Below, one piece after another: positions 17,476 through 34,775 of a stretch of DNA of 38,491 nt. The position numbers and the translations under genes were made by a program. Under the pieces are notes generated by a model. The model was not told where the DNA came from, made no database searches, and saw only the letters and a list, made by a program, of their open reading frames with translations. This stretch comes from Xanthobacteraceae bacterium. GTDB lineage: Bacteria > Pseudomonadota > Alphaproteobacteria > Rhizobiales > Xanthobacteraceae. Location: contig JASHQI010000010.1 of assembly GCA_030037645.1 (NCBI GenBank), positions 1 to 38,491 on the forward strand, in the 5' to 3' direction. The stretch's first letter is position 1; every line of letters begins with the position of its first letter.

Positions 17476-17504
17476 TTGCACTAAGGCAGGGCGGGAATTA
17501 AATT
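17476..17504 (+). promoter_or_regulatory. Sigma70-like promoter of riboswitch unit A
   Basis: -35 TTGCAC (17476-17481), 17-nt spacer, -10 TAAATT (17499-17504). Transcription would begin near 17511, directly before the first aptamer base at 17512. The match is by eye. Confidence 0.55.
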
Positions 17505-17511
17505 TGTAAGC

Positions 17512-17556
17512 GGCGGTGGAGTTCGCCATTAAGTGCCTAACGGCCGATGACTCCTG
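17512..17556 (+). promoter_or_regulatory. Fluoride (crcB-motif) riboswitch aptamer A
   Basis: Matches the known fluoride aptamer. GGCG (17512-17515) pairs with CGCC (17524-17527) as the pseudoknot. GGAGTT pairs with GACTCC as helix P1, closed by a G-U wobble. GCC-TAAC-GGC forms P2, followed by the invariant GATGACTCCT (17546-17555). It lies about 150 nt before the dynamin-like GTPase gene, same strand. One oddity: the conserved A after the 5' pseudoknot strand (GGCGA) is G here (GGCGG), at a position that helps form the fluoride site in known structures, so affinity could differ. Confidence 0.87.
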
Positions 17557-17579
17557 CTGGCGATAGCGCGGCGGGAGTC
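17549..17579 (+). promoter_or_regulatory. Expression-platform hairpin of riboswitch A
   Basis: GACTCCTGCTG (17549-17559) pairs with CGGCGGGAGTC (17569-17579) over 11 bp with a 9-nt loop. It competes with P1, because both use GACTCC. The right arm contains GGGAG, exactly 8 nt before the ATG at 17586, so this hairpin would hide that ribosome-binding site when fluoride is absent. No T-run follows, hence translational rather than termination control is likely. Confidence 0.65.
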
Positions 17580-17585
17580 TGAAAG

Positions 17586-17711
17586 ATGGCACTAGGACCA
17601 CCCTCGCCACCCCCTTCATTTTTCCGCCGTCTGCCGCTCATCTCGCGCACTTGGACTGCCGTCTCTCTGGAAGACGGTTTCGCCGGTATCGCGTCGAGGG
17701 CACTCCCATGA
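17586..17711 (+). CDS. Possible leader ORF of riboswitch unit A (41 residues)
   Basis: ATG at 17586 stands 8 nt after the GGGAG that the riboswitch hairpin can hide. The frame runs without stop to a TGA at 17709-17711, which overlaps the ATG of the GTPase gene (ATGA). The peptide begins MALGPPSPPPSFFRRL and resembles no known protein. It may exist only to couple GTPase translation to the riboswitch. Not certain to be translated. Confidence 0.4.
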   Translation: MALGPPSPPPSFFRRLPLISRTWTAVSLEDGFAGIASRALP

Positions 17712-19402
17712 TCCTCCGAGAATACGAACAAGACAAATTCGCAATAGCCGACGTCCTGCGATCCGCCTCCGCGCTATCTGAACCGAGCGCACACAATTGG
17801 CAGCAACGCGCGCGTGACCTCTTCATCCGCCTCGCCGAGGATCGATTCAATCTTGCGGTCGTTGGACAGTTCAATCGCGGAAAGACTTCGCTCATGAACG
17901 CAATCATTGGCACCGATCGTCTGCCGGTCGGCATTATCCCGCTCACATCCGTTATCACAACGGTCTCGTACGACACGAGTGAGCGGGTTATTCTCGAGTT
18001 CTACGAGAGGCGGCTCGCGCAGGAGATCCCTATCGATTCGCTGCGCAGATACGTGACCCAAGACGGCAACCCCGCGAACGTACGTGGCATACGGACCGCA
18101 GACATAAAGCTGCGCGCCGAGATTCTTCGTCGCGGTTTCTTCTTTGTTGATACCCCGGGATTGGGGTCAGCAATCGTCGAAAACACCCGCACAACTGAGG
18201 CCTTCCTGCCCGAGGCCGACGCCTTTCTGGTTGTCACGAGTTACGAAAGCCCCATGTCCGAGGAAGAAATCAAGATCTGTCGTCATGTGGCGGCGTCGGG
18301 AAAGCTCATATTTGTTGTTATCAACAAGCAAGACGTGGTTACGCAGACCGATCGCGATGTGGCACTGAGCTTCGTTCGAAACCAGCTGCAAGAGGTGTTT
18401 GGAGAAAGCACTCCGCCTGTATTCTCGGTGTCCGCGCGTGATGGCCTCGAAGCCAAGCTGAACCACAACAGTTCGCGACTTGCGGCGAGTGGGATTCCGT
18501 CGCTCGAGGACGCCCTCGTCAACTATCTGCTAACGGAAAAGAGAGGCCAATTCCTGCGACACATGTGTCATCGAACTTCCGAGGTGATACGTGCACTACC
18601 GCCATCGCTACAGACTCGCGCGCTGATCGACCAACTCGCCGAACTCGCGACGCAAGTGGCGGGCCGCGATCGGGCGGATTACGAGGAAAAAGCGCGGACG
18701 CCGACATGCGCGGAGGCCCCTACCCTACGGCAGCTCAGGTCATGTGAGATCTGCGCGCACATCAACGATGCGCTTTGGGATTTTGAGTGCAAATATCAAT
18801 ATGAGCTTTCCGCCAGTCGAGACGTGCAACGAGATTTTGTCGAATCGGGCGGCTTATGTAGCTTTCACACGTGGCAATACCACTCGATTGCTTCCTCATA
18901 CGGCATCTGCGCAGCGTACCCGCCTTTTCTCGATCATTTAGCGGCGCACCTGCGCGCCCACAGTGAGACGCCTCCAGATTCCGCCGTTGAACACACGCTA
19001 TCGTTGCGGCGGCATTGCATACTGTGCAATGTGCGAAACGAGGCGGAATCAAGAGCAATCACCGCGCTGGCCAACGATCTGTCTAACCAGCCAGCCTCAA
19101 CGCTGACATCGCTGTCAGCGATCTGCATGCCACACTTGGCATTATTGACGAGCATCCTGAACAACCGCGCACTGGTTCGCCGACTCATCAATCACCAAGC
19201 AGGTCTCCTTGAGCGTCTATCGGAAGAAATGCGGCGCTTCACCCTGAAGCGGGATGCGACGCGACGCAACCTTGAGACCAAGGAGGAACTGACCGCCTCC
19301 CAGCGAGCCCTGCTGCTTTTGGCAGGACACCGCAATGTATTTGGCAGCGATTCGCGGCCGTCGACGAGTGGCTTCGTGCCAACCAAGGATACCGCGCCAT
19401 AG
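17708..19402 (+). CDS. Dynamin-family GTPase with C-terminal CxxC/CxxH region
   Basis: Large GTPase of 564 residues under riboswitch A. GTPase motifs: G1 GQFNRGKTS (53-61), a conserved Thr in the LTSVITT segment (G2), G3 DTPGLG (148-153) and G4 NKQD (206-209), the pattern of bacterial dynamin-like and related membrane GTPases. The C-terminal half lacks an obvious dynamin stalk. Instead it shows two C-x2-C plus C-x2-H sets: C346/C349 with C384/H387, and C437/C440 with C473/H476, likely two zinc sites. The ATG at 17708 has GAGGG 7 nt upstream; an in-frame TTG at 17651 would add 19 unlikely residues. Seven nt downstream begins the HEAT-repeat gene. A membrane or nucleic-acid role is inference. 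Confidence 0.8.
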   Translation: MILREYEQDKFAIADVLRSASALSEPSAHNWQQRARDLFIRLAEDRFNLAVVGQFNRGKTSLMNAIIGTDRLPVGIIPLTSVITTVSYDTSERVILEFYERRLAQEIPIDSLRRYVTQDGNPANVRGIRTADIKLRAEILRRGFFFVDTPGLGSAIVENTRTTEAFLPEADAFLVVTSYESPMSEEEIKICRHVAASGKLIFVVINKQDVVTQTDRDVALSFVRNQLQEVFGESTPPVFSVSARDGLEAKLNHNSSRLAASGIPSLEDALVNYLLTEKRGQFLRHMCHRTSEVIRALPPSLQTRALIDQLAELATQVAGRDRADYEEKARTPTCAEAPTLRQLRSCEICAHINDALWDFECKYQYELSASRDVQRDFVESGGLCSFHTWQYHSIASSYGICAAYPPFLDHLAAHLRAHSETPPDSAVEHTLSLRRHCILCNVRNEAESRAITALANDLSNQPASTLTSLSAICMPHLALLTSILNNRALVRRLINHQAGLLERLSEEMRRFTLKRDATRRNLETKEELTASQRALLLLAGHRNVFGSDSRPSTSGFVPTKDTAP

Positions 19403-19409
19403 GTTCATT

Positions 19410-20204
19410 ATGGATCCCGTTGATCGCGCCATCGAAAAACTGAAATCCTTTACCGCTGGTGACAGTGGGATCATTGAAGTAGTCGCCTGCGGCGACCGCG
19501 CCATTCCCCTACTCCGCGCGCTTTTGTTCGGCCGAGAGCCCAGCGGCCTCTTTCAGGCGCGGGTGCGGGCGGTCGATGCTCTTGCGCGTCTCGACGCTCA
19601 CGACATATTGGTCGAATACCTTAACATGCCGCAAGAAATTCTCGATCCGGTCGAGCGCTTAGGTGAGGATGCCGTCATCAATGCCGCAGCGCAGGCTCTG
19701 GCGAATCAGCGCGAGCCGCGCATACTTGACTTACTGCTGCGGCTTGCCCGGCGGCCCTGCCTCACCGGCGTTATCTATGCTCTGGGTGTGTTTCGGGAGG
19801 TCGGAGCAATACCCCTATTAGTTGAGGCATTGGCCGAGGACGCCAGCCGCGTAACTGCTGAAACAGCCTTAAAGCGGATCGGCGCAAGCGCTCGTGCCGC
19901 ATTGATCGCGGCTGCAATCCGGCGTCGGGATGAACCACCTGAGTCGGAGAGCCGATTGCGACAACGTCGGAGTGCATTGAGGCTGCTTTTGGAAATGGGC
20001 GCGTCGCGTCGCATTTGGCAGGAAGTGAAGCCTCTGATGCATGACGACGACGCGCAGATCGCGGTGCTGGCTTGTGAAGTCGGCTTGTCGAGCGGATCGC
20101 CGTCCGAAAAGCGAGAAGCTGCGCGATATCTTGTTAATTTGGCGACAAAAGTTGATTGGATCTTGCGCAATGAGATAGAAAGACATTTGATCTTGAATAT
20201 GTAA
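19410..20204 (+). CDS. HEAT-repeat protein
   Basis: 264 residues, almost all alpha-helical, with repeated helix pairs of HEAT/PBS-lyase type, such as RVRAVDALARLDAHDILVEY, DAVINAAAQALANQREPRI and PLLVEALAEDASRVTAETALKRIG. These form curved scaffolds for protein contacts. No signal peptide or enzymatic motif. The ATG at 19410 lies 7 nt after the GTPase stop, so it is very probably co-transcribed with it and under riboswitch A. The last third (SRRIWQEVKPLMHDDDAQIAVLA) is also repeat-like. A natural guess is a partner of the neighbouring GTPase, but nothing in the sequence proves it. Confidence 0.78.
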   Translation: MDPVDRAIEKLKSFTAGDSGIIEVVACGDRAIPLLRALLFGREPSGLFQARVRAVDALARLDAHDILVEYLNMPQEILDPVERLGEDAVINAAAQALANQREPRILDLLLRLARRPCLTGVIYALGVFREVGAIPLLVEALAEDASRVTAETALKRIGASARAALIAAAIRRRDEPPESESRLRQRRSALRLLLEMGASRRIWQEVKPLMHDDDAQIAVLACEVGLSSGSPSEKREAARYLVNLATKVDWILRNEIERHLILNM

Positions 20205-20645: not shown

Positions 20646-22265
20646 CTAAAGCATTGCGGTTTTGTCCCTGGGTTTGGATTCTGACGGTCCGCGGCGTCTA
20701 TCCTCCGAGAAGACCGCGCGGTACAGGTCCTCCCCATAGCTTGTTTGTAGTGGTTCGGCCTCAATGAGTTTGAACGGTCGCGTACCATCCGGCCGCCTTT
20801 CGGCACGAAGGAACTTTACTCGATTGGACCTTCGTACATAGAAGGAATTGGCAAAATGGTAGAGGTGAGTGACAAAGAAGATCTTTACTTTGTTGTCGAG
20901 CAACGCAGTGACGATTTGGTTCGCGATCTCGGAACCTTCGCGTTCGTTTGTCGAAGCAAACGATTCGTTCAATAAGAGCATTGCGTTCGCCCGAATGGTG
21001 CTGACAATTTCGCTCATTCTGCTGAGCTCTTCATCCCACTTGCCGCTTTCCATCGACGTGTCTTCTTCGCGCTTATAGTGCGTAAAAAGCCCGTCACACA
21101 CTTCACCGGCAAAGGTCTCGCCCGCCACAAACATACCCGCCTGCATCATCAGTTGGGCGAGACCGATGCTCCGCAAGAACGTGGATTTTCCCCCAGTATT
21201 GGCGCCGGTCACGATCACCAAGTCCTTACCGGTGACGGCTTTGAGATCATTGCCTACAATCTTTCGGCCCATGCTCAGTGCCAGCGAAGCGTCGTAAAGG
21301 CCCGAGCAGGATAGCGTTCGTTCCCCCATGGGAGCGGGAGCCGGAAAGCAGATCGGTTCGCCGATCCGCTCGAGCTCTGCGTCTAGATTCAGGCAACCGA
21401 TATAAAAGGCCAATTCCGTCCGCACCATCTGGAAGAAGCTAAGGATATGATCCGTCGATTGAGCCAGTGCGTTAGCGACCAGGTTCACGCCGCGATCGTT
21501 TAGGTTTGACAGCGCGCGCGCACCGTTTTCATCGCGGGGGTGAAGCTGAAATGAGTACCCAACCGGCTTATCCGCCAGCAACCGAACTAACCAGCTCCGC
21601 GGCTCATGGTTCGGCTTTCGAAGCACATATTTTGTTCCCCCATTTCCTGGACCCAGTTGGGCACTGATGAGCGTTCCGTGCCGGAAGGCTAGCCGGTTTA
21701 GGTGGTCCTCGATGGAGGCGAAATATTCATTGCTAAGCTCTTTTTGCAGCATAGTGAACAACGTCGAAAAGCCTTCTGACTCGAATTTTTCGGCGTGCTG
21801 GTCTGCTATACTCCTCAGGCGCTTCAATGCTCGAACGAACGTTCGCAGCACATCGACCGCGCGATGAAGCGTACCCGTGGGATACCGGCCAAATGAACTC
21901 CAGTAGTTTTTTCTTTCACCCTCAATCGCTTCGACCACAATCTTGTACAAATCACGGACAATGGCCGCATTCTTTAAGCTGTCAGCAAGGACGCGTTGGC
22001 GATATCGAATGGCGTCAAGGTCAGTTAGGCTAGACAGCACCGCGACCTCGGCGACTTCGAATAGGAACTTGTCCTCACCCGACATCGCCTTGCACAGTAT
22101 GTCCAGTCCAAGGTCCTGTCGCAGTGCCTGCTGATTCCATTGAAGGACCTGATCTAGCTTTAGACCTTCATCGGAACTTCGACTGCGCCGCAATTCCCGT
22201 TCCCGTCGGACGAGAAGCTGCTGCGGATCGAAATCCCGGTCTCGGTGCATCAGGAACGCTTTCAT
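20646..22265 (-). CDS. MutS-like ATPase, second of a pair
   Basis: 539 residues with the MutS core and ATPase domains but without the N-terminal mismatch-binding domain (no F-x-E motif). Helical clamp-like region first, then ATPase: Walker A GANTGGKST (354-362), signature-like segment DEELSRMSEI, Walker B MLLLNESFAST (429-439) and the H-loop FFVTHLYHF. Acidic Glu in Walker B is present, so ATP hydrolysis is expected. Start: ATG at 22265, which overlaps the stop of the partner gene; the frame is open upstream but that part overlaps the partner. Together with the partner it probably forms a heterodimer, as ATPases of this family work as two-site dimers. Control by riboswitch C is likely. Substrate unknown; not the canonical repair MutS. 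Confidence 0.83.
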   Translation of the reverse strand: MKAFLMHRDRDFDPQQLLVRRERELRRSRSSDEGLKLDQVLQWNQQALRQDLGLDILCKAMSGEDKFLFEVAEVAVLSSLTDLDAIRYRQRVLADSLKNAAIVRDLYKIVVEAIEGERKNYWSSFGRYPTGTLHRAVDVLRTFVRALKRLRSIADQHAEKFESEGFSTLFTMLQKELSNEYFASIEDHLNRLAFRHGTLISAQLGPGNGGTKYVLRKPNHEPRSWLVRLLADKPVGYSFQLHPRDENGARALSNLNDRGVNLVANALAQSTDHILSFFQMVRTELAFYIGCLNLDAELERIGEPICFPAPAPMGERTLSCSGLYDASLALSMGRKIVGNDLKAVTGKDLVIVTGANTGGKSTFLRSIGLAQLMMQAGMFVAGETFAGEVCDGLFTHYKREEDTSMESGKWDEELSRMSEIVSTIRANAMLLLNESFASTNEREGSEIANQIVTALLDNKVKIFFVTHLYHFANSFYVRRSNRVKFLRAERRPDGTRPFKLIEAEPLQTSYGEDLYRAVFSEDRRRGPSESKPRDKTAML

Positions 22266-23797
22266 GATCTCATGCGCTCCTTGATAGCGTCGTAGGTCAG
22301 GCCATACTTTTGAGCAATCGCCATCGCATACGCGAGACCATCCGCCGGCCTCCTCACGATCTTGAAGGTCCGCAACGCAGGGTTTTCCGGAACAACTGTG
22401 CTGACCATAGAAACGATCTGTGGCCCGAAGGACGCCAGTTCGTCCACGAAAGTAACCCAAACGCACAGCACGCCAAGGCGAACGATCCTCTCCATGACTT
22501 TGCTGCTGAGGAAAGTCTCGTCCTGTATGGTCGTCGACGTGAAAACCTCATTGAGGATGATGATCGACTGCGACGTAGCTTCATTGACGATCTCGCGTAT
22601 TCTTACTAAATCGTCTTCCAGCTTGCCCCGTAGATTCTCGACCTTCTCCTCCTTTTCAAAATGAGTGAAGAGCTGATCGCACAAGAATAGTTGGGCCTCC
22701 CTCCCTGGAACAGGCAGACCGATGCTTGCGAGGTAATGCAATTGACCGAACGCCCGCGCGAACGTCGTTTTGCCTCCCTGATTGGGGCCGGATACGACCA
22801 AGATGCGTTCGCTTTCCTTTAGGTGAAAATCGTTGCACACGACGGACGAGCCGTCACCGACCAGTTTGTGTGCCAACGCAATATCGAAACCGCCGTAGTC
22901 GTACACTTCTTTGGTCTGATCGGAGACACGCGGATAGCAGAACCTAAGGCCCGCGCTCCTCATCGCCGCTATGTATTCTAAGTAGACAAGGTAGAATTGA
23001 ACCTCGCGATCAAACGCGGCTACGGTGCTATCGATGAACTCGCGGTGCCTCGCGCAGAAATTTGTCAGCGCCGTGAACACTTCAGGATGTAGTTTCGCTA
23101 CAAACTCCAATATCTTTGCTTCAATATGATTCATATCCGCGCTTTCGGTGAAATTCACGCGATAATCGCGCACCGCACCCTGCTTGAATTTTGCGAATGT
23201 CGCTTCAACCTCGGCGCTGTAATCCATCTCGCCTTCGGTCTTGCGAACTGTGAATCCATTGCTCTTGATGTGGATGCAATAGTCCACCTTGATCAATTCG
23301 ACCTTGAGCTTTTTTGACTCAACGGCAAGTCGTTGGAATTGATTGGAATTGGCATATTGCAACAAATAGTCTCGAAAGCCGAGGAAGCCGCGCGAGTGTA
23401 ATTCAAGGTTCTTAAGATCGTCGGCAAAGGACGCAACAGCCTGACAATAGGTCTCGATTGCATCGAGGAACCAGGCCTGTTGCTGTTCCTTGTAATAGAG
23501 CTTTTCAACACGAGCGAGACGATCGCGGATGGAATGCATCGCCCCGGCAAAAGCGTTCACGCGATCATGCAATGGCATGCCATCGAGATCTTTCATCACA
23601 TCGTGGCGATAATTGACCGCATTAAGCCGGCGCAGGCGAGAGTAGTAAAACGGCCTTAGATTGTATTCGTCTTTTCCTGTGGTAATGGCCGCGACAACTT
23701 GATCGCAGTTTAGATCGGTGAAAAAGGCGGGCGAAGCGAGAGGACCACCGTCACTTCGATCCTGGGCAGTTTCAAACAAAATGCTATTGAAGCTCAT
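22262..23797 (-). CDS. MutS-like ATPase, first of a pair
   Basis: 511 residues. An alpha-helical core (about 1-320) leads to a MutS-type ATPase: Walker A GPNQGGKTT (about 337-345), a segment LEDDLVRIREIVNEA, Walker B IIILNEVFTST, and a VTFVDELASFG region where the family His is replaced (VTF instead of VTH). The start MSFNSILF at 23797 is chosen because this opening is typical. The frame stays open a further 104 codons upstream through the riboswitch terminator, but that part is Arg/Ala-rich with no likeness to the family. No mismatch-recognition domain. Its stop overlaps the second MutS-like gene by 4 nt. The loss of the H-loop His here but not in the partner suggests unequal ATPase sites. 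Confidence 0.82.
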   Translation of the reverse strand: MSFNSILFETAQDRSDGGPLASPAFFTDLNCDQVVAAITTGKDEYNLRPFYYSRLRRLNAVNYRHDVMKDLDGMPLHDRVNAFAGAMHSIRDRLARVEKLYYKEQQQAWFLDAIETYCQAVASFADDLKNLELHSRGFLGFRDYLLQYANSNQFQRLAVESKKLKVELIKVDYCIHIKSNGFTVRKTEGEMDYSAEVEATFAKFKQGAVRDYRVNFTESADMNHIEAKILEFVAKLHPEVFTALTNFCARHREFIDSTVAAFDREVQFYLVYLEYIAAMRSAGLRFCYPRVSDQTKEVYDYGGFDIALAHKLVGDGSSVVCNDFHLKESERILVVSGPNQGGKTTFARAFGQLHYLASIGLPVPGREAQLFLCDQLFTHFEKEEKVENLRGKLEDDLVRIREIVNEATSQSIIILNEVFTSTTIQDETFLSSKVMERIVRLGVLCVWVTFVDELASFGPQIVSMVSTVVPENPALRTFKIVRRPADGLAYAMAIAQKYGLTYDAIKERMRS

Positions 23798-24060: not shown

Positions 24061-24084
24061 AAAAAAACCGCCTCGCGGCGGGTT
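24061..24084 (-). terminator. Intrinsic terminator downstream of riboswitch C
   Basis: On the minus strand CCGCC-GCGA-GGCGG is followed at once by seven T. It lies about 10 nt after the platform hairpin and about 265 nt before the MutS-like coding start. It could stop transcription when fluoride is low, or act as a second stop after the platform hairpin, which itself ends in a short T-rich run (GTCTTTT). The short 5-bp stem makes it moderate in strength. Confidence 0.65.
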
Positions 24085-24092
24085 CAAAAGAC

Positions 24093-24122
24093 ACCCCTAC
24101 CGCGATCATCCGCGGTAGGAGT
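24093..24122 (-). promoter_or_regulatory. Expression-platform hairpin of riboswitch C
   Basis: On the minus strand ACTCCTACCGCG pairs with CGCGGTAGGGGT over 12 bp (one G-U) around a GATGAT loop, and GTCTTTT follows. It shares ACTCCT with aptamer helix P1, so the two folds exclude each other. Stem plus T-rich tail fits transcription termination in the absence of fluoride. Confidence 0.62.
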
Positions 24123-24160
24123 CATTAGCCTTTCGGCGGATATCGGGCGACTCCATGCCT
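24116..24160 (-). promoter_or_regulatory. Fluoride (crcB-motif) riboswitch aptamer C
   Basis: Minus strand. GGC-A-TGGAGTC-GCCC gives the pseudoknot (GGC with GCC) and the P1 left strand. GCC-GAAA-GGC is P2 with a GNRA loop. CTAATGACTCCT (24117-24128) is the invariant right part, with GACTCC closing P1 perfectly. The conserved A and T after the 5' pseudoknot strand are present. It heads the MutS-like pair (first ATG at 23797) and lies just 44 nt after the stop of the GTPase gene upstream. Confidence 0.9.
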
Positions 24161-24166
24161 ACTTAG

Positions 24167-24194
24167 ATGCTAGCAAATGCTCGGCTTTGGTCAA
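24167..24194 (-). promoter_or_regulatory. Sigma70-like promoter of riboswitch unit C
   Basis: On the minus strand -35 TTGACC (24194-24189), 16-nt spacer, -10 TAGCAT (24172-24167). The expected transcription start, about 24160, coincides with the 5' end of the aptamer. It lies in the gap between the GTPase stop (24204) and the aptamer, so the MutS-like pair has its own promoter. Confidence 0.6.
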
Positions 24195-26704: not shown

Positions 26705-26712
26705 CTCAATAT

Positions 26713-26782: not shown

Positions 26783-26801
26783 GTCGCTTGTAGTGGATGT
26801 G

Positions 26802-26905: not shown

Positions 26906-26918
26906 GCCGAATCGAATT

Positions 26919-26965
26919 GGCGATGGAGTCCGCCTCAACCGCCCTAGCAGGCTGATGACTCCTAT
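26919..26965 (+). promoter_or_regulatory. Fluoride (crcB-motif) riboswitch aptamer D
   Basis: The best match of the four. GGCGATGGAGTCCGCC (26919-26934) gives the pseudoknot (GGCG with CGCC), the conserved A and T, and the P1 left strand. AACC follows as in the known consensus. GCC-CTAGCA-GGC is P2, and CTGATGACTCCT (26952-26963) is the invariant right side, with GACTCC closing P1 perfectly. It heads the Hyf-like operon (first ATG at 27147). Confidence 0.93.
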
Positions 26966-27007
26966 GGATGCTGCGTGATCGTAAGAATCGCGCGGCTTAC
27001 CGTAGGA
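26960..27007 (+). promoter_or_regulatory. Expression-platform fold of riboswitch D
   Basis: TCCTATGG (26960-26967) can pair with CCGTAGGA (27000-27007) over 8 bp with one G-U. The 32-nt interior contains its own 7-bp hairpin (GCGTGAT with ATCGCGC). TCCT is shared with P1, so ligand binding and this fold compete. The right arm holds AGGA. No terminator T-run is seen. Confidence 0.45.
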
Positions 27008-27030: not shown

Positions 27031-27150
27031 ATGGCGACTATTGCCGATGTAATCCGCATGTTGCGGATGCGTGCCGAAGCGGCAGCGTGGCGTAAGTCAC
27101 GACGCGCGATCCAACGGCTGCTCTATTGTGCCCGTGGGGTCGCTTCATGA
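27031..27150 (+). CDS. Possible leader ORF of the Hyf-like operon (39 residues)
   Basis: ATG at 27031 follows GGGGTGAT (27017-27024) at a suitable distance. The frame ends with TGA overlapping the ATG of the HyfC-like gene (ATGA at 27147). The peptide (MATIADVIRMLRMRAEAAAW, then Arg-rich) is a basic amphipathic helix type and matches no known family. It could be a small real subunit or a leader that couples translation of the operon to riboswitch D. An in-frame ATG at 26968 gives a longer version starting inside the riboswitch fold. Confidence 0.42.
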   Translation: MATIADVIRMLRMRAEAAAWRKSRRAIQRLLYCARGVAS

Positions 27151-28097
27151 TCGAGCGGATCGTCTACAACCTTATCCAAGTGGCCGTCGTGGTGGGGTTT
27201 GCACCGCTGGTCGAAGGCGTGACCACGCGACTCAAAGAAATCCTTCAATCAAAGCGCGGCCCGAGCATTTTTCAGCCATATCGGGACATCTGGAAGCTAC
27301 TGCACAAGGATGAGATCGTATCAGAACACAGCTCGTGGATTTTTCGCGCCGCGCCGTATGTGGCTTTTGCGGCGCCGGTTTTCTGCGCACTTCTCATCCC
27401 TGTCTTAACACGCTACCCGTTGTTCTTCGCCTTCATGGGCGACATGCTTGGCGTCGGCTTCGTGTTGGCGCTTGGTGGATTTTTCACCACTCTGGCTGCC
27501 GTGGACACCGCCAATCCATATGGACCGATGGGCGCGAGCCGGACCCGCATGGTCGGTTTTCTCGCCGAACCGGCCTTCATAATGGTGTTTCTAACCATTT
27601 CTTTTGTGGCAGGATCGACTATTCCCTACATCGTGCAAACGCGTTGGGTTACTCCAATCGCAAATTTCTTCGAACCATCGCATATTCTGCTGCTCATCGC
27701 CTTTCTGATGCTCATCCTAGCAGAGGATGGTCGCATCCCGGTCGACAGCCCTTCCGGTCAGTTCGAACTCGCGATGATCGATCGCTCGAAGTCGCTGGAA
27801 TATTCCGGACGAGGAGCGGCATTGCTGAAATGGGCCAGTGCCATGAAATTCTTTGTGCTCTTAGTTGTTTTTCTCAACGTCGTGGTGACGCCTTGGGGCT
27901 TGGCGCAGGGGAAGGATCTTGGAGAGGTACTTTTGGCGATCCCGCTCGTATTGTTCAAGATGTTCTGTTTCGTGCTCGCGCTCGTCTGCATCGAGTCATC
28001 GCTAGCCAAGCTGCGACTGTTCCGTATTACCGAATTTATAGGGGCCGCCTTCGTGATTTCTGTTATCGCCGTAATCACTCAATTATCGCAAATATGA
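27147..28097 (+). CDS. HyfC/NuoH-like membrane subunit
   Basis: Membrane subunit of 316 residues, homologous to HyfC/HycD of formate hydrogenlyase and NuoH of complex I, which connects the soluble and membrane arms. About eight helices. Family signatures: RGPSIFQPYRDIWKLLHKDEI near residues 37-57, ASRTRMVGFLAEPAFIMV, and the acidic loop LAEDGRIPVDSPSGQFELAMIDRS with EYSGRGAALLKWA. These residues line the quinone/proton channel in relatives. It is the first standard gene after riboswitch D, with GTGGGG about 8 nt upstream. Six genes follow the order C-E-F-G-I-B in one tight operon. Confidence 0.9.
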   Translation: MIERIVYNLIQVAVVVGFAPLVEGVTTRLKEILQSKRGPSIFQPYRDIWKLLHKDEIVSEHSSWIFRAAPYVAFAAPVFCALLIPVLTRYPLFFAFMGDMLGVGFVLALGGFFTTLAAVDTANPYGPMGASRTRMVGFLAEPAFIMVFLTISFVAGSTIPYIVQTRWVTPIANFFEPSHILLLIAFLMLILAEDGRIPVDSPSGQFELAMIDRSKSLEYSGRGAALLKWASAMKFFVLLVVFLNVVVTPWGLAQGKDLGEVLLAIPLVLFKMFCFVLALVCIESSLAKLRLFRITEFIGAAFVISVIAVITQLSQI

Positions 28098-28107: not shown

Positions 28108-28779
28108 ATGAATAGTTCATCGATCCTCTTCGCCCTCGACGCACTGACAGGCGCTCTGTTTTTACTTACGGCAATTGGTGTCGTTGCCACTCGCCAAGTG
28201 CTTGCCTCGCTGCAGCTATTCATTTTGCAGTCGGTGCTGCTAACGCTGTCGGCGGTGCTCCTTGGTTTCGCGCAGGGCTCCATTCATCTGTTCGCTGTGG
28301 CCGCGATCACCATCGCCACCAAAACGCTGCTGATCCCATGGCTGCTTCGGCACACAGTAAGCGCGGAGGTGTATCGCACGCGCGAGATTGAAAGAGTCCT
28401 CAACATCCCGAGCTCGTTGCTGATCGCCGCAGTGCTCATTGTTCTTGCCTATGTTGTCGCCAACCCACTGCTCGGCGCGGTCAGCGTACCGTTTGCACAG
28501 ATCAATCTGCCACTTGGTATTGCCGCGATGTTTCTCGGCACGTTCACCATTGTAGTTCGACGCGAGGCAGTACCGCAGTTGCTCGGATTGCTTGCGGTGG
28601 AAAATGGCGTGTTTTTCGCTGGCGTGGCGATTGTACCAAGCCTGCCGGTCATCGCGGAGCTCGCAGCCGCGGTCGACGTGCCAGTGCTGGCGCTTGTCAT
28701 TGGCATGCTAACCCGGCGGATCCATGTGCGGCTCGGCACCACATCGGTCGGTCAGCTGGCATCGTTGCGCGACTGCTGA
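28108..28779 (+). CDS. HyfE-like membrane subunit
   Basis: 223 residues with about six to seven hydrophobic helices; the C-terminal half is related to NuoK/MrpC. Family marks are ATRQVLASLQLFILQSVLL at about 25-43, ATKTLLIPWLLRHTV, and LLGLLAVENGVFFAGVAIVP, whose Glu corresponds to the conserved NuoK glutamate used in ion movement. Start ATG at 28108, 10 nt after the HyfC-like stop; the next gene follows 7 nt later. Part of the membrane arm of the Hyf-like complex. Confidence 0.88.
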   Translation: MNSSSILFALDALTGALFLLTAIGVVATRQVLASLQLFILQSVLLTLSAVLLGFAQGSIHLFAVAAITIATKTLLIPWLLRHTVSAEVYRTREIERVLNIPSSLLIAAVLIVLAYVVANPLLGAVSVPFAQINLPLGIAAMFLGTFTIVVRREAVPQLLGLLAVENGVFFAGVAIVPSLPVIAELAAAVDVPVLALVIGMLTRRIHVRLGTTSVGQLASLRDC

Positions 28780-28786: not shown

Positions 28787-30232
28787 ATGGAACTCTTCGG
28801 AATACTCGTTATTCCATTGCTTGCGAGCGGATTTTCCTTGCTTCCGCTCGGTCGTCGTTTCGCTGCGCCCGCGACGCTCCTCGCGACCGCGATCGTTCTC
28901 GGCCTCGCCCTCGCCGTCGCGCTCGAGGCCTCCAGGACAGGGCATGTCGCGGCGTCGGGCCAGTGGCTGACGTGCGACGGACTCGGCGCCTTGGTGCTGC
29001 TGCTGGTCGCCTTCGTTGGATTCACTGCCGCTTTGTTTTCCTGGGGTTATGTGGCGGAAAGCGTAAAGCGCGGCCGTCAAAAGAGCATCCACCAGTATTA
29101 CGCGCTCTATAATCTGTTCGTTCTTTCGATGCTCTGCGTACCACTTCTGGCCAACGTTGCTCTCATGTGGATCGCAGTGGAATTAACCACGCTACTGTCG
29201 GCCTTCCTGGTCGGCTTCGAGGATACCCCTGAAGCTCTCGAAGCGGCTTGGAAATACGTCATTCTCACGACGCTCGGCGCCGTCCTCGCTCTGCTCGGCT
29301 TTCTCATTCTTTATTGGGGATCGCGCGTCGCGGGCATGGAGCCGTTCACCTGGATAGGCCTCGTCGGGGCGGCACCCCATACGCCGCCTGCACTGATTTG
29401 GATCGCCTTCCTCTTTATCCTGGTTGGTTTTGGGACCAAGGTTGGGCTCGTTCCGATGCACACTTGGCTACCGGACGCCCATAGCCAAGCACCGGCCTCG
29501 ATCTGCGCTCTCCTGTCAGGCGTCGAAACGACGACGGTGCTCTACGTCATCCTACGGCTGTTTCCGGTGGTCAGCGCCGCGCCGGGCCTCGATGCGCGAC
29601 CATGGTTCATTGCCTTTGGACTGATCTCGGTGACGGTAGCGACGCTGCTGTTGATTTATGTCCGTGACTTCAAGCGGATGTTCGCCTTCTCGACCGTTGA
29701 GCACATGGGCATCATCCTGGTCGCCGCCGGTCTCGGTGGTGCCGACGCTCATCTCGGCGCCGCCTACCAAATGACCGGTCACGCGATCGCAAAATCGTTT
29801 TGCTTTTTCGCGGCTGGCGCGACCGTGCTCAGCGTCCGCACCCAGGAAATCGCATCGGTCCGTGGGCTCGTGCGCTCGTCTCCCGTTGCCGCGATTGCAT
29901 TGCTGGCTGGCGCCTTTGCGATCGCAGGGGCACCACCCTTCGGTTTGTTCGTCAGCGAATTCGTCATTCTCAAAGCGGGGCTGGCGAGCGGGCAGTACGC
30001 GGTGGTCGGACTTCTGGCCTTCCTCGTTGTGATCGCATTTTGCGCCGTCATGCTGCACGTGAATCGAATGGCATTTGGCACACCGGAGCGCGAGATGCAC
30101 ACTTGGGCGCTGCCGCGCACCTGCAAGTTGACCTTGGCCTTTGCCGCTATTCCACTCATCATCATAGGCATCTATGTGCCCGCGCCGCTCTTTGAATTGC
30201 TAAAGGCAGCGGCGAGCGCGATGGGAGGTTGA
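28787..30232 (+). CDS. HyfF-like antiporter-type subunit
   Basis: 481 residues, about thirteen helices, member of the NuoL/M/N-Mrp antiporter-like family, HyfF branch. The conserved Glu is in LMWIAVELTTLLSAFLVGFE. KVGLVPMHTWLPDAHSQAPA carries the broken-helix Lys and the HTWLPDAH box, and FAFSTVEHMGIILVAAGLGG supplies the further His/Glu. All the charged residues of a working proton path appear present. Start ATG at 28787 has GAGGA about 5 nt upstream; the frame is open further upstream but overlaps HyfE. Predicted to move protons (or Na+) across the inner membrane. Confidence 0.92.
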   Translation: MELFGILVIPLLASGFSLLPLGRRFAAPATLLATAIVLGLALAVALEASRTGHVAASGQWLTCDGLGALVLLLVAFVGFTAALFSWGYVAESVKRGRQKSIHQYYALYNLFVLSMLCVPLLANVALMWIAVELTTLLSAFLVGFEDTPEALEAAWKYVILTTLGAVLALLGFLILYWGSRVAGMEPFTWIGLVGAAPHTPPALIWIAFLFILVGFGTKVGLVPMHTWLPDAHSQAPASICALLSGVETTTVLYVILRLFPVVSAAPGLDARPWFIAFGLISVTVATLLLIYVRDFKRMFAFSTVEHMGIILVAAGLGGADAHLGAAYQMTGHAIAKSFCFFAAGATVLSVRTQEIASVRGLVRSSPVAAIALLAGAFAIAGAPPFGLFVSEFVILKAGLASGQYAVVGLLAFLVVIAFCAVMLHVNRMAFGTPEREMHTWALPRTCKLTLAFAAIPLIIIGIYVPAPLFELLKAAASAMGG

Positions 30233-30240
30233 GCGGTCTC

Positions 30241-31863
30241 ATGGCCACGCTCGATCGCCTAGGAGACACGGTCGACACCGCACACGGCATCGCGGAACGG
30301 TCTCGCGAACTGTGGCATGGAAGAGTGCTCGCAACTGCAAACGATGCCAGCCGCTTGTGTCTGTTGGCATGCGGGCGCGACGATCTCTCCGGAATATGCC
30401 AATGGCTAACTCGCGATCTCGACTTTTCATTTGCGACGTTGATCGTCGAAGAACTGGCGCAAGGCGAATGGTCGCTCGTCTATGTCTTTTACAAGGGCGC
30501 AGCCTCACCCTCGGTGCACGTCACGCTGCACCTTGGCGTGGGCGCATCTTCTGTTCCCTCTCTGGTCGGTCTCGTTCACGGACCCTCATTCGACTGGCAC
30601 GAGCGTGAGGCTGAGGACCTTTTTGGGCTGCGATTCGAAGGTCACCCACGTCTTGGCGAATTCGTCCTCCACGAAGACTGGCCGGAAGGCATCAACCCGA
30701 TGCGCCGAAACTTCAATGGAAAGGAGCGGTTCGGCCCGAGAACTCGCGAGCCTGAGTGGGACCCGCAAACGGTTGTTGCAGCGGTAGGCGCTTTTACCAT
30801 GCCGATCGGCCCCGTCTTCTCGGACTTCGCCGAGTCCGCACACTTTCTCCTGGAGACGGTTGGTGAAGACGTCATCCGGACCATTCCTCGCTTCTTCTAC
30901 AAATACCGCGGCGTCGAGAAAATCGCTGAGGGACAGATGGCGGATCGGGCGTTGCTGCTTGCTGAACGGTTCTCTGGCATTGCCGCATTCGCACATGGCT
31001 TGGCCTTTTGCCAAGCCGTCGAGACGATCTGCGGAGTTTCAGTGCCGCCGCGGGCGCGCGCCTTGCGCACGGCGCTCGCCGAACTCGAGCGGCTGCGCAG
31101 TCATGCAGCAGTCATCACCGGCATCTGCAATTCGACAGCGCTCGTCGTAGCGGCAAGCCAGGCCGCGCTCATCGAGGAGAGCCTTATCCGTTTGAGCTGT
31201 GACATAACCGGCCATCGCTATCTGTTCGGTGCTGTTGCCTTAGGAGGCGTGTCGTTTGACCTGGGGGACGAAGACTGCAGCCGGTTGACGAATAGAACCG
31301 CTGAAGTCGCGGAGCGACTGCGCGATCTGTTTCATATGCTTCGCTATTCATCCAGCTTCCTGGACCGTCTCGAAGAAGTTGGCATCGTCGCAGAGAGCTA
31401 TGCGCGGTCCTACGGGCTGGTGGGACCGATCGCGCGCGCGTCGGGGGTGGCACGCGACGTCCGCAAACTCTTTCCTTACGCTGCCTATGACTCGGTTGAG
31501 TTTTCTGTTTCGCTTGAACACGAGGGTGATGGCTATGCCCGCCTGCGTGTCCTGTTCGAAGAAGCGGCCCAATCTGCCGCGATCATCCGTCGGGTCCTAT
31601 CCTTACCACCGGCCGGTCCCGTTGGTGTTGGTCACGTTCCACTGCGCGCCGGCGCAGCGCTCGCCGCGGTGGAGGCGCCGATGGGAGCTGCCTTCCACTG
31701 GCTACGGCTCGACGGTGATGGGTCGGTTGTACGCTATCACGTCACACCGCCTTCGTTCGCGAATTGGCATGGCTTCCACATCGCGGCGGAAAATTTCGCG
31801 TTTCAAGACTTTCCGATCATTCTCGCGAGTTTCGGACTGTCGAACGCCGAGTGCGATCGATAG
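30241..31863 (+). CDS. HyfG/HycE-like large subunit lacking Ni-Fe ligands
   Basis: 540 residues, a fusion of a NuoC-like N-terminal domain (FDWHEREAEDLFGLRFEGHPRL) and a NuoD/hydrogenase large-subunit domain. In true Ni-Fe hydrogenases the first site reads R-x-C-G-x-C-x3-H; here R243-F-S245-G-I-A248-A-F-A-H252 has lost both Cys while keeping Arg, Gly and His. The C-terminal Cys pair (DPCxxC) is likewise absent: the protein ends with DFPIILASFG followed by about ten residues. It therefore cannot carry the Ni-Fe centre and resembles the 'energy-converting hydrogenase-related' (Ehr) class. A TTG at 30229 overlapping the HyfF stop is an alternative start; ATG at 30241 is preferred, with GGAGG 12 nt upstream. 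Confidence 0.88.
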   Translation: MATLDRLGDTVDTAHGIAERSRELWHGRVLATANDASRLCLLACGRDDLSGICQWLTRDLDFSFATLIVEELAQGEWSLVYVFYKGAASPSVHVTLHLGVGASSVPSLVGLVHGPSFDWHEREAEDLFGLRFEGHPRLGEFVLHEDWPEGINPMRRNFNGKERFGPRTREPEWDPQTVVAAVGAFTMPIGPVFSDFAESAHFLLETVGEDVIRTIPRFFYKYRGVEKIAEGQMADRALLLAERFSGIAAFAHGLAFCQAVETICGVSVPPRARALRTALAELERLRSHAAVITGICNSTALVVAASQAALIEESLIRLSCDITGHRYLFGAVALGGVSFDLGDEDCSRLTNRTAEVAERLRDLFHMLRYSSSFLDRLEEVGIVAESYARSYGLVGPIARASGVARDVRKLFPYAAYDSVEFSVSLEHEGDGYARLRVLFEEAAQSAAIIRRVLSLPPAGPVGVGHVPLRAGAALAAVEAPMGAAFHWLRLDGDGSVVRYHVTPPSFANWHGFHIAAENFAFQDFPIILASFGLSNAECDR

Positions 31864-31872
31864 AGGGGTGCG

Positions 31873-32631
31873 ATGGCAAACTGGGTTTTTAAAGGACTGC
31901 GCACGGGCATCAAAAGCTCCGCCTACCCCGCCGAGCACGATGAGGCTTGCGGCGTCTCGCCCGGCCGTCCGATCGGCACAAGCTTAAAGTCTCCCGCCGC
32001 CGTCGAGGAGCTCGTCACACGATGCCCTACTCAAGCGATTGAACATGCAAACGGCGGCATCGCGATAGAATATGGACGCTGCGTTCATTGCTTCCGCTGC
32101 AAGCGGGGGCTGGACGATGCGGCGACATGGCAGCAAGGCTTCGAATGGGCGGCTTTTGAAGGCGAGTCCCCGCCGGAGAAGCTCGCGCGCATATTCGGTC
32201 GTTCCCTGCATGTCCGTTTTGTCGATGCCGGAGCGTGCGGCGCCTGCATGAGCGAAGCGCGCCAAATCAATAATCCGTATTACAACATGCACCGCCTTGG
32301 CATTTTCACCACTCCGACGCCGCGCAACGCCGACGTTCTGCTTGTTGCCGGGCCGATTTCGGACGCCATGCGGCTGCCGCTTCGCAAGACCTACGACGCG
32401 ATGCCAACTCCCAAACGCGTCGTTGCAATCGGGACTTGCGCAGCATCCGGCGGCATTTTTAGCCCTAGCTTTGCCGCAGCAGGCGGCGTCGCCGACATCA
32501 TCCCTGTCGACGTGATTGTGCCAGGATGCCCACCGCCGCCCTTGGCTATTTTGCACGGTCTCCTTCTCGTCGTGGAAAAAAAGCCGGCATCGACGCTCAC
32601 GTCACTGCCACCGCGCACGGAGCACGCATGA
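31873..32631 (+). CDS. HyfI/NuoB-like small subunit with N-terminal ferredoxin part
   Basis: 252 residues carrying two predicted [4Fe-4S] sites. The N-terminal ferredoxin-like part provides C51-P and C70-x2-C73-x2-C76, one cluster, in place of the separate two-cluster HyfH protein. The C-terminal part is NuoB/HyfI-like, with C122-x2-C125 (GACGACMSE), C189 (IGTCAASGG) and C219 (PGCPPPP), the complete ligand set of the proximal/N2 cluster. So electron transfer to quinone or another acceptor remains possible although the large subunit has no Ni-Fe site. Starts 9 nt after the HyfG-like gene; its stop overlaps the HyfB-like start. No separate HyfA/HyfH gene is found. Confidence 0.88.
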   Translation: MANWVFKGLRTGIKSSAYPAEHDEACGVSPGRPIGTSLKSPAAVEELVTRCPTQAIEHANGGIAIEYGRCVHCFRCKRGLDDAATWQQGFEWAAFEGESPPEKLARIFGRSLHVRFVDAGACGACMSEARQINNPYYNMHRLGIFTTPTPRNADVLLVAGPISDAMRLPLRKTYDAMPTPKRVVAIGTCAASGGIFSPSFAAAGGVADIIPVDVIVPGCPPPPLAILHGLLLVVEKKPASTLTSLPPRTEHA

Positions 32632-34775
32632 GAACGACCGAGCTCCTCTGCGCTTTCTTCCTCCTTTGCGCGACTGGCGGCATTTTGGCCTTTCTCGCGC
32701 CGCAACGACGGCTTCCCCTCGTGCTCGCGGTGGTCGGTTCGCTCGCAGCCGCGGTCCTGTTGGTAGTTAGCGGCATATTGCTGGTATCCGCCGCCGAATT
32801 TCACGCGGCCTTGTGGCCGCTCCTCAACCTTGGAACGCTTAAGGTCGGAGTTGATCACCTCTCTGCATTTTTTCTCTTCGTGACTGCGCTAGTCTATCTG
32901 CCGGTCTCGATTTTCTCAGGCGCCTACCTGGAAAAATATCTCAATCATTACAGCCTTCGCCATTTGAGCGCTCTCTACCATGCCTTGTTCGCCTCGATCG
33001 TACTCGTCCTCATGGCGAACGATGTCATTTCGTTTCTAGTGGCGTGGGAATTCATGTCGATTGCCAGCTATTTGCTCGTCAATTACGAATTCGAGCGTCC
33101 CGAAAGTTCCAGAGCCGGCTACGTGATGCTGGCGATGAGCGAAGGCGGGACCATTGCAGTCGCGATTGCGTTCATCCTAATCGCTGTGGCCGCTGGCAGC
33201 CTCGACTTCGCGACAATGCAGTCCTCAACCCTCGGCCTCTCTGGGCCGCTCCGGACGGCGATTTTCTTGCTGTCGTTCTTCGGCTTTGCTGTGAAAGCTG
33301 GGCTCGTGCCCCTCAACAGTTGGCTGCCGCTTGCTCACCCTGTGGCCCCCACCAATGTTTCCGCGCTGCTTTCGGCTGTCATCGTCAACTTGGGAATATA
33401 TGGCATCGTCCGGGTGAACCTCGATCTTGCACCCACCACGGGCGCGGCACACGGTCTTTTCGTCCTCGTGGTCGGCAGCATCTCGGCGCTGATTGGTATC
33501 CTGTACGCGACGATCCAGACCGAGATGAAACGTTTGCTCGCACATAGCACCATCGAGAACATGGGAATCGTCACGGCGGGCATTGGCGCCGCTATGGTCT
33601 TTGTTGCAATGGGACATCAAGTTGTCGGTGCGATAGCCCTGATCGCGGCCTTGTACCACCTTGCCAATCACTCCGTGTATAAAGCCCTCCTCTTCCTCGG
33701 CACCGGCGCGGTGGAAGGAGGCACCGGGACTCGCGATCTCGACCTTCTCGGTGGCATCAACCGCCACATGCCATGGACGAGCGGCTTTTTCCTTGTTGGC
33801 GTGCTGTCGATCGCAGCGCTGCCGCCCTTCAACGGTTTCGTCAGCGAGTGGCTGACTTTGCAAACGGTGCTGCGTTCGGCCGAATTGGCCTCGACACCCA
33901 TCAAGATCGCGTTCGCAATCTGCGGCGCGCTCTTGGCACTGACCGCCGGCCTCGCGGTGACCTGCTTCGTGAAAGTGTTTGCCATGGGCTTCCTCGGCCT
34001 GCCGCGTTCGACGGGCGCCGAAAAAGCAACCGAGGCAGGACTCGGCGTCCGGGCGCCGCTGGCGATCCTAGCTGCGCTTTGCATCCTACTCGGCCTTCTA
34101 CCGACGTACGTCATCCCCGTTATCGATCGGGCAGCCGCTCCGCTTACTCACGCCCGCGCCACCGGTGCGCTCGTTCCGCCATTTTTTGTTTCGAATACGC
34201 CGCAACAAGACCAGCTACCGCCCGCCTTCCTTTCGGAATTCCACGATCTTGGAGCCATGGTGGGTCGTGGTTTTGTCCCGGGACGAGGACTCGTCGTGCT
34301 GCATCGGGGGGAGGAGCGCAACCCTGTGATCTTCGCGATGTCCACGTCCTACATGACTGCCGGATTTGTCTTCATTCTTGGGGCGATCTTCGTCGTATTT
34401 AGGGCGTTAACGCGATATAGACGTCTTACGCGCGGTCCGACCTGGGACGGCGGTTTGCGCAAGCTCACGCCTGCCGTCACGTACACGGCAACCGGATTCT
34501 CTAATCCCGTTCGCGTCATTTTCGACGCCGTGCTCCGTCCCGCTGCCAGCGAAGAGAGCACGGAGGCCATAGCAGGTCATTTCCGTGTCGCGATTAAGCG
34601 GGAGTACACCGAGGTCCATATCATCGATCGCTTCATCCTGCAGCCGCCAATCAACGCGCTGCGCACGCTGGCGATGCTCGCTCGACGGATGCAGGTCGGG
34701 CACGTGAACGCCTATGCCGCATACGTGCTGATAGCGATTTTGGTCGTTCTCATCGTCGGTGTGAGCGCGTTTTGA
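32628..34775 (+). CDS. HyfB-like antiporter-type subunit
   Basis: 715 residues, the largest membrane subunit, NuoL/HyfB type with about fifteen to sixteen helices. Signatures: WEFMSIASYLLVNYE (conserved Glu), KAGLVPLNSWLPLAHPVAPTNVSALLS (Lys and His), AHSTIENMGIVTAGIG, HSVYKALLFLGTGAVEGGTGTRDLDLLGG and ALPPFNGFVSEWLTLQ. A hydrophilic insert near residues 500-565 and a last helix at the very C-terminus are as in HyfB. Overlaps the HyfI-like stop by 4 nt. It completes the operon; no formate dehydrogenase or hydrogenase maturation gene follows, again unlike a working formate hydrogenlyase. Confidence 0.92.
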   Translation: MRTTELLCAFFLLCATGGILAFLAPQRRLPLVLAVVGSLAAAVLLVVSGILLVSAAEFHAALWPLLNLGTLKVGVDHLSAFFLFVTALVYLPVSIFSGAYLEKYLNHYSLRHLSALYHALFASIVLVLMANDVISFLVAWEFMSIASYLLVNYEFERPESSRAGYVMLAMSEGGTIAVAIAFILIAVAAGSLDFATMQSSTLGLSGPLRTAIFLLSFFGFAVKAGLVPLNSWLPLAHPVAPTNVSALLSAVIVNLGIYGIVRVNLDLAPTTGAAHGLFVLVVGSISALIGILYATIQTEMKRLLAHSTIENMGIVTAGIGAAMVFVAMGHQVVGAIALIAALYHLANHSVYKALLFLGTGAVEGGTGTRDLDLLGGINRHMPWTSGFFLVGVLSIAALPPFNGFVSEWLTLQTVLRSAELASTPIKIAFAICGALLALTAGLAVTCFVKVFAMGFLGLPRSTGAEKATEAGLGVRAPLAILAALCILLGLLPTYVIPVIDRAAAPLTHARATGALVPPFFVSNTPQQDQLPPAFLSEFHDLGAMVGRGFVPGRGLVVLHRGEERNPVIFAMSTSYMTAGFVFILGAIFVVFRALTRYRRLTRGPTWDGGLRKLTPAVTYTATGFSNPVRVIFDAVLRPAASEESTEAIAGHFRVAIKREYTEVHIIDRFILQPPINALRTLAMLARRMQVGHVNAYAAYVLIAILVVLIVGVSAF

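Follow-up and report, generated by a model that had tools for sequence, protein, structure and literature searches.

RNA aptamers of the crcB type bind fluoride and turn genes on, and a study from 2012 reportedly identified the ligand of this crcB-motif RNA. Already in 2010, mutS and formate hydrogen lyase genes had been named behind the same RNA (PMC2864571). A review from 2024 counts formate hydrogen lyase among the commonest genes behind the fluoride riboswitch, describing it in terms of fermentative formate oxidation, and notes that fluoride, entering as a weak acid, lowers cytoplasmic pH and proton-motive force (PMC11139923). In Enterobacter cloacae FRM, knock-outs have shown that a fluoride operon confers resistance, and the operon was also tested by quantitative reverse transcription polymerase chain reaction (PMC5533749). 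Here we analyse a stretch of 38,491 nucleotides from a Xanthobacteraceae bacterium (contig JASHQI010000010.1, assembly GCA_030037645.1; the window, hereafter, is this whole stretch), in which an island of about 17 kb (17,476-34,775) carries four aptamers of this type, F1 to F4. It shares with the known fluoride riboswitch regulons the aptamer and the mutS and formate hydrogen lyase genes; a preliminary description of the window had mentioned single cases of riboswitches before such MutS-like and formate-hydrogenlyase-like genes, and these are indeed in print since 2010 (PMC2864571). It differs from them in joining four switches on one island, in a hydrogenase-like complex without nickel-iron (NiFe) ligands, and in two dynamin-like GTPases (dyn1 and dyn2), a HEAT-repeat protein and a 139-residue protein (p139), all absent from the accessible part of the published account. 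The riboswitch-driven multi-gene resistance locus GI3 of E. cloacae FRM, with its enolase, pyrophosphatase, Usp and CrcB genes, resembles the second operon of G166, a genome of the window's phylum described below, whereas no exporter, enolase or pyrophosphatase was recognised among the products of the island; the words 'MutS' and 'GTPase' do not occur in the accessible text of the FRM paper.

We propose that this locus is probably a fluoride-resistance island, with four operons switched on together and with products concerned with membrane and energy. As far as our literature search goes, what is new is the recurrence of dynamins in fluoride regulons, the loss of NiFe ligands in the linked complexes and the existence of multi-switch islands that join these parts. 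The search, which left subscription papers mostly outside, found no paper pairing 'fluoride riboswitch' with dynamin or MutS and none linking dynamin with fluoride, riboswitch and bacterial; papers retrieved with crcB and dynamin were cell biology, judging by their titles and the beginnings of their abstracts.

The covariance model RF01734 of Rfam (curated gathering score, 34 bits), run with cmscan, places all four aptamers within about 10 bases of the positions given in the preliminary description (17512, 24116, 26738 and 26919), and F1, F3 and F4 exceed the gathering score:

17503..17563, + strand: fluoride aptamer F1, RF01734 43.6 bits, upstream of dyn1-HEAT
24109..24169, - strand: fluoride aptamer F2, RF01734 32.4 bits, E 1.3e-5, upstream of mutsA-mutsB
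26731..26791, - strand: fluoride aptamer F3, RF01734 47.1 bits, upstream of p139-dyn2
26910..26971, + strand: fluoride aptamer F4, RF01734 55.7 bits, upstream of the operon for the hydrogenase-like complex

Strand and gene order bear out the earlier statement that each aptamer faces its own operon, the distance from the aptamer end to the likely gene start being 145-312 bases. The stems P1 and P2 and the 5-bp pseudoknot (GGAGU or GGGGU with ACUCC), whose 5' strand had also been described, can be read in all four, P1 being weak in F2, where two pairs of the model are broken. The core is GAUGACUCCU in F1, F3 and F4, and AAUGACUCCU in F2. In an alignment of 29 aptamers including F1-F4, 96.6% of the cells pair, and two-sided changes occur in P1, P2 and the pseudoknot. 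The covariation score was reached by none of 500 shuffles, and the tally of pairs in which both partners differ, six, by 11 of them. Two of the measures lie far beyond every shuffle; the count of pair types is unremarkable, its observed value being attained in 347 of the 500. Judged by its covariation, the aptamer structure is real. A second model, R1, was trained with F1-F4 included, and its scores for these four are therefore by construction. The RF01734 search of the genome from which the window comes (4.57 Mb in 336 contigs, 90% complete) returned F1-F4 and no other aptamer. Across 398 genomes of the same phylum, scanned with stricter filters owing to the size of the set, 67 had a match at E<=0.001; two aptamers were seen in nine genomes other than the window's own, and more than two in none of these. 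A chance origin of the four-fold occurrence is ruled out by the E-values and this genome-wide count. Tandem fluoride aptamers, about 25-30 bases apart, were seen in the class of the Acidobacteriota genome G419 (G435:C82 and G465:C131).

A hairpin of 12 to 20 pairs lies behind each of the four aptamers, and its 5' arm takes up the ACUCC strand, whole at F1 and F2 and in part at F3 and F4:

17549..17580, + strand: hairpin taking up the ACUCC strand of F1, z -5.5
24061..24122, - strand: hairpin taking up ACUCC of F2 (first hairpin 24093-24122), then UUUU and a second hairpin with a run of seven U
26712..26743, - strand: hairpin taking up CUCC of F3, z -5.3
26960..27007, + strand: hairpin taking up three bases (UCC) of the ACUCC strand of F4, z -6.1

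The z-scores of the hairpins range from -5.3 to -6.5 against mononucleotide shuffles, the segment being chosen each time as the best of many, and those of the whole leaders from -2.0 to -4.2 against dinucleotide shuffles. Aptamer and hairpin are mutually exclusive and, therefore, ligand binding should favour expression; by analogy with known fluoride switches, those of the window would work in the ON direction.

The operons behind F1, F2 and F3 encode six proteins:

17708..19402, + strand: dyn1, dynamin-like GTPase of 564 residues from ATG, Dynamin_N 1e-25, G1/G3/G4 motifs
19410..20204, + strand: HEAT-repeat protein (start by our reading), HEAT_2 4.3e-5, under the Pfam cut-off
20646..22265, - strand: mutsB, MutS-like ATPase (start by our reading, overlapping the mutsA stop), MutS_V only
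22262..23797, - strand: mutsA, MutS-like ATPase, partner of mutsB, MutS_V only, 21-row alignment
24204..26030, - strand: dyn2, dynamin-like GTPase of 608 residues, Dynamin_N 2.5e-24, G1/G3/G4 motifs
26076..26495, - strand: p139, 139-residue protein; its Methylovirgula homologue follows mutsB in an operon with an aptamer in front

The linkage of dynamins to fluoride aptamers was counted in 25 genomes, namely the window's own, G166 and 23 others chosen by MutS-A and not by dynamins. A dyn2 homologue (E<=1e-8) occurs in 11 of them, and 15 of the 26 dynamin places, in nine of these 11 genomes, lie within 1 kb downstream of an aptamer on the same strand; simple arithmetic (79 aptamers in about 116 Mb) gives a random gene a chance of about 3 in 10,000 of having such a neighbour. 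As an independent test, dyn1 alone was compared with 200 genomes of the class of G419, 38 of which have a homologue at E<=1e-25 (37 besides G419 itself). Aptamers (E<=0.01) were present in 36 of these 37, up to 11 per genome and 150 in total, and in 23 of 50 dynamin-negative controls, with at most three each and 32 matches in total; for the controls we took the first 50 of the 162 genomes lacking the dynamin and applied stricter filters than to the positives, which favours the difference. The fairer pair is that of genomes with aptamers over the curated cut-off, 34 of 37 versus 21 of 50 (Fisher p 1.2e-6, with no correction for kinship). The 37 genomes, which share ancestry, hold 79 dynamin places (alignment pieces, as are the 26 places above, some genes being counted twice), and a same-strand aptamer lies upstream within 1 kb in 32 of them and within 5 kb in 60, compared with six and 14 for upstream aptamers on the opposite strand and seven and 13 for downstream aptamers on the same strand. 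Counted by genome, some dynamin lies within 5 kb downstream of an aptamer in 33 of 37, and within 1 kb in 26.

In G419 and G420 (L096, L097, L098 and L106) the dynamin stands between enolase and CrcB and, therefore, inside the core resistance locus. At L096, L098 and L106 an aptamer precedes the enolase or an antiporter and another separates enolase and dynamin; L097 starts too late to show the first and has the second. Besides the window, an aptamer directly ahead of a dynamin was found in Bacillota (Desulfosporosinus), Myxococcota and Acidobacteriota. In Moorella (Bacillota), a further aptamer is followed, at L066:12986-13450, by a truncated frame of 154 residues, whose match to the G-domain model of dynamins is confined to the initial 44 positions. 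Among 72,556 plasmid records, dyn2 had no match at E<=1e-25.

Both island dynamins keep the G1, G3 and G4 motifs of the dynamin G domain. In sequence and fold, dyn1 is nearest to BDLP, IniA and the Campylobacter jejuni DLP pair; its AlphaFold model is modest (mean predicted local distance difference test, pLDDT, 70.8) and superposes poorly on BDLP outside the G domain (root-mean-square deviation 25 over 545 columns), and such folds were used as support only, here and for MutS-A (61.9). The C-terminal module of dyn1 has two CxxC..CxxH sets that vary little or not at all across ten sequences, and related Cys/His modules, some only weakly similar, stand alone as proteins in other fluoride islands. 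Dynamins of bacteria remodel or tether membranes, have been proposed to act in membrane repair and occur mostly in pairs (PMC6104087, PMC8844932). The described systems Cj-DLP1/2, BDLP, IniA and DynA thus have in common with the window the G domain, the best sequence and fold matches and two dynamins per locus, but dyn1 and dyn2 belong to separate operons, dyn1 has its Cys/His module, and fluoride would be the stimulus.

Only the ATPase domain V was matched in mutsA and mutsB at 0.001 in Pfam, with no match to the mismatch-recognition domain I, the connector or the Smr domain. Both carry GxNxGGK[ST] and an LNE motif, at the place of which MutS has DE. Matches to the sequences of solved MutS proteins begin at the ATPase and its approach, and the best structural match of MutS-A is the core of Thermus thermophilus MutS2, obtained with the low-confidence model cited above. 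The pair shares its ATPase core with MutS2 and KamC, from which it differs by the lack of any mismatch or Smr domain match, by the LNE motif and by presumably forming an unlike pair. p139 had no match at 0.001 in Pfam or NCBIfam.

The distribution of the MutS-like pair was followed with a two-row MutS-A alignment as query against one genome per species (84,980 species), which yielded 23 loci in as many genomes, from Pseudomonadota, Bacillota, Chloroflexota, Bacteroidota, Acidobacteriota, Spirochaetota and Myxococcota, the others being bins. The MutS-A tree comprised 21 of these loci, the window and G166; the fragmented L083 and L085 were left out. A mutsB partner, 42-59% identical where homologues were compared, was found in 21 of the 23 loci but not in the two Acidobacteriota, where mutsA itself is partial. 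RF01734 matches (E<=0.01) occur in 22 of the 23 genomes, up to eight per genome, and 20 of the 23 loci hold at least one aptamer, some of them weak (model R1, E<=0.1). CrcB, antiporter, enolase and Usp genes often stand beside the aptamers of these loci. In G166, one aptamer precedes antiporter-Usp-mutsA-mutsB and another pyrophosphatase-Usp-enolase-CrcB-P-type ATPase. We tallied the nearest recognised gene within 1.5 kb of 65 aptamers (those of the window and G166 among them, with scores as low as 17.9 bits, seven duplicates from overlapping loci dropped and a 14.5-bit match in L078 left out): dynamin came first with 13, followed by antiporter (12), mutsA (11, a share inflated by the choice of genomes through MutS-A), crcB (7), hyfC (5) and HEAT (4), other known island genes making up eight and none being recognised for five. 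HEAT homologues lie behind aptamers in L091 and L087. Within the window's phylum, and apart from the true MutS-A homologues given below, the matches listed for 337 tallied genomes have 22-31% identity over the ATPase and are taken for ordinary MutS. MutS-A homologues also occur on 45 of 72,556 plasmid records, 21 of them predicted to be conjugative; the best 25 of the 45 come from Klebsiella, Rhodococcus, Burkholderia and others and are often annotated as mismatch repair MutS.

Several genomes combine most of these parts. In a Methylovirgula bin (G414), aptamers stand ahead of HEAT, of hyfC-E-F-G (identity with the window genes 66-82%) and of mutsA-mutsB followed by the p139 homologue. G403 has the arrangement aptamer-dyn2-two genes (144 and 331 residues)-hyfC-E-F-G-I-B, with the same order of subunits as the window. 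The Myxococcota locus L070 has one aptamer before dyn2, another before HEAT-mutsA-mutsB and a third before hyfC-E-F-G, with a 250-residue protein, an enolase in two frames and a 162-residue protein coming before the hyf genes. In Acidobacteriota, dynamins, HEAT, a partial MutS-A and hyf genes occur together with CrcB and enolase. Candidimonas nitroreducens carries aptamers in front of its Ehr-type hyf genes, its MutS pair and its CrcB gene. The search for the gene set in other genomes that the preliminary description had proposed thus recovered most parts behind aptamers in the Methylovirgula and Myxococcota bins, and its view of dynamins, HEAT protein, MutS-like pair, p139 and Hyf-like complex as one fluoride response is supported by this recurrence in Methylovirgula, Myxococcota and Acidobacteriota. 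Because the same genes lie behind the same switches in several phyla, the island genes probably contribute to the survival of bacteria exposed to fluoride. In the Methylovirgula bin, aptamers also precede two further kinds of gene: one resembling cyclopropane-fatty-acid synthase, likewise membrane-directed (L094:10362-10422; CMAS 1.6e-57), and a Nudix gene, where the aptamer (L091:10859-10918, minus strand) overlaps the start of the RppH-like frame.

The F4 operon encodes six complex-I/hydrogenase-4-like subunits in the order C-E-F-G-I-B:

27147..28097, + strand: HyfC/NuoH-like membrane subunit, NADHdh 3e-31
28108..28779, + strand: HyfE-like membrane subunit, hydrogenase 4 membrane subunit 3.2e-18, below the model cut-off
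28787..30232, + strand: HyfF/antiporter-like subunit (start by our reading), Proton_antipo_M 4.9e-50
30229..31863, + strand: HyfG-like fused 30/49-kDa subunit, Ehr type, all four NiFe cysteines absent
31873..32631, + strand: HyfI/NuoB-like subunit with N-terminal ferredoxin-like part, Oxidored_q6 2.5e-25, cluster cysteines kept
32628..34775, + strand: HyfB/antiporter-like subunit, closing the operon (start by our reading), Proton_antipo_M 6.8e-55

The Hyf-like complex of the preliminary description has no hydrogenase metal ligands. At the places of CGxC and CYSC in aligned hydrogenases (the Ni-Fe cysteine motifs L1 and L2), the HyfG-like protein of the window reads RFSGIAAFAH and SFGLSNAECDR. 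The four ligand cysteines are absent from all six riboswitch-linked HyfG homologues read, which come from the window, G403, Methylovirgula G414 (two contigs), both Candidimonas and Acidobacteriota G419, L070 being left out. The window and four of the five other linked rows, G403 being the exception, have a Cys one place past the last ligand position. In the four HyfG homologues without an aptamer in the stretch examined, both Cys pairs are kept in L103, L107 and L111, but not in L110. Because the four NiFe-binding cysteines have been lost, the complex is, by its sequence, of the Ehr type and not a hydrogenase: it has the hydrogenase-like core without Ni-Fe ligands and the antiporter-like subunits that define Ehr complexes, which are suspected to drive charge translocation by redox chemistry (PMC6349859). 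The complexes described under that name are likewise similar to group 4 hydrogenases, whereas the one in the window stands behind a fluoride riboswitch, has the order C-E-F-G-I-B with B last and has no recognised formate dehydrogenase adjacent, none of the island proteins scanned having a Pfam match to such a partner.

In the 25 genomes, seven of 54 HyfG-like places lie 3-7 kb downstream of a same-strand aptamer. Nearly all the others have no same-strand aptamer upstream and act as paralogue controls, the exceptions being a short fragment in G402 and, in Methylovirgula, the latter half of the gene that is split there. The riboswitch-linked subunits form two well supported groups, one with the window, L070 and G403 and the other with Candidimonas and Acidobacteriota. 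L110, of Mesorhizobium hawassense (G410:C46), has an Ehr-like complex with most NiFe cysteines gone and no aptamer in the stretch examined. In the HyfI-like protein of G403 (L101:12917-13633), alone among the ten aligned rows, Gln replaces the last cluster Cys.

As for exporters, PF02537 (CrcB) had no match in the window's own genome, 90% complete, and the island does not count as one of the exporter type. Two CLC genes, whose motifs did not tell fluoride from chloride type, lie elsewhere in this genome without an aptamer. Because no CrcB was matched and neither CLC gene could be typed, the island may be the main fluoride defence of its genome.

These data suggest the following course of events. 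Intracellular fluoride, as Mg-fluoride, would be bound by the four aptamers, each of which would then hold ACUCC in its pseudoknot and out of the hairpin, so that the four operons are turned on. The two dynamins might tether, remodel or reseal membrane under hydrogen fluoride and acid stress. The Ehr complex could draw on electrons, ferredoxin being a possible donor, for the transport of H+ or Na+, and this ion movement would rebuild the gradient and the pH lowered by fluoride entry. The MutS-like pair with its HEAT partner may be a conformational ATPase acting on some client and not a mismatch repair system. A broader proposal, which we put forward tentatively and regard as possible at best, is that dynamins are a core class of fluoride-resistance proteins, present in at least three named phyla besides the window's own genome and guarding membranes under fluoride riboswitches, and that together with the NiFe-less Ehr pump and the MutS-like pair they replace the exporter in genomes seemingly without CrcB. 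If true, bacterial dynamins, whose natural triggers are to our knowledge mostly unknown, would have a simple inorganic inducer, their membrane action becoming testable by the addition of fluoride, and a physiological condition would be found for Ehr complexes, whose function is open.

The island products might alternatively serve to repair the targets of fluoride. The dynamins, MutS-like ATPases and HEAT protein would then be reactivases of, or spares for, those nucleotide-dependent enzymes that fluoride, or metal-fluoride acting as a phosphate mimic, poisons, by analogy with the presumed spare copies of enolase and pyrophosphatase. These two enzymes are indeed fellow genes in G166, and their copies are so interpreted in E. 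cloacae FRM; moreover, the aminomutase reactivase KamC is the best NCBIfam model for mutsB and the fourth for mutsA, but its scores (69.7 and 46.5 bits) are far from the cut-off of 300. We are aware of no essential target among dynamins for which a spare would be required, which counts against this explanation, and we hold it to be unlikely. Export of fluoride by the Ehr complex itself, with the dynamins, in place of CrcB or CLC-F appears more doubtful still. It would fit the lack of a CrcB match in the window's genome, its two CLC genes without aptamers, and the absence of CrcB from the Ehr-plus-dynamin stretches examined of Myxococcota L070, G403 and Methylovirgula; however, CrcB adjoins the Ehr operon in Candidimonas and Acidobacteriota G419, the genome is 90% complete, and its CLC genes are assigned to neither type.

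It is very improbable that these four RNAs have degenerated or respond to a different ligand: F2, with its sub-threshold score and two broken P1 pairs, could be read in this way, but the pseudoknot kept in all four, the conserved core of F1, F3 and F4 and the competing hairpins speak against it. An anti-phage defence island with incidental riboswitches is barely credible. The dynamins do match the PADLOC models LeoA and LeoBC, and mutsB matches NsnB, all with partial model coverage, but the same kinds of genes lie behind fluoride aptamers across genomes, in loci shared with CrcB and enolase, and the dynamin-aptamer linkage counts make this reading unlikely.

Several observations weigh against the fluoride-resistance island that we favour. 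The Rfam search proposed in the preliminary description, positive for three aptamers, left F2 1.6 bits under the gathering score (32.4 versus 34), and a U-run follows the hairpin only at F2, those at F1, F3 and F4 having none. Fluoride control of the four switches here, like the role of every protein, is something that we infer from sequence. Membrane action of dyn1 and dyn2 would follow from their family only: a clear transmembrane stretch was not found in either, and the G domain of dyn1 is followed by a Cys-rich module. The Methylovirgula dyn2 adjoins an aptamer but is not downstream of it, four of the 37 Acidobacteriota genomes have no same-strand aptamer within 5 kb of any dynamin, and p139 has a homologue in only one other genome among the loci compared. 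One of the 23 genomes with the MutS pair (G411) has no aptamer, and none lies beside the pair in L069, L071 and L079. Of the 398 genomes of the window's phylum, only two have a true MutS-A homologue and one has dyn2 (E<=1e-15, three first-look candidates per genome). With these counts, close relatives, considered as a source of the island, offered little.

Upstream of the island, positions 54-6900 of the window encode a KdpD-like kinase, a response regulator, an outer-membrane efflux protein and a patatin-like phospholipase. Two adjacent ABC substrate-binding genes of the same Pfam family follow at 9171-11167, and after them come a sensor kinase and response regulators, one with a cyclase domain.

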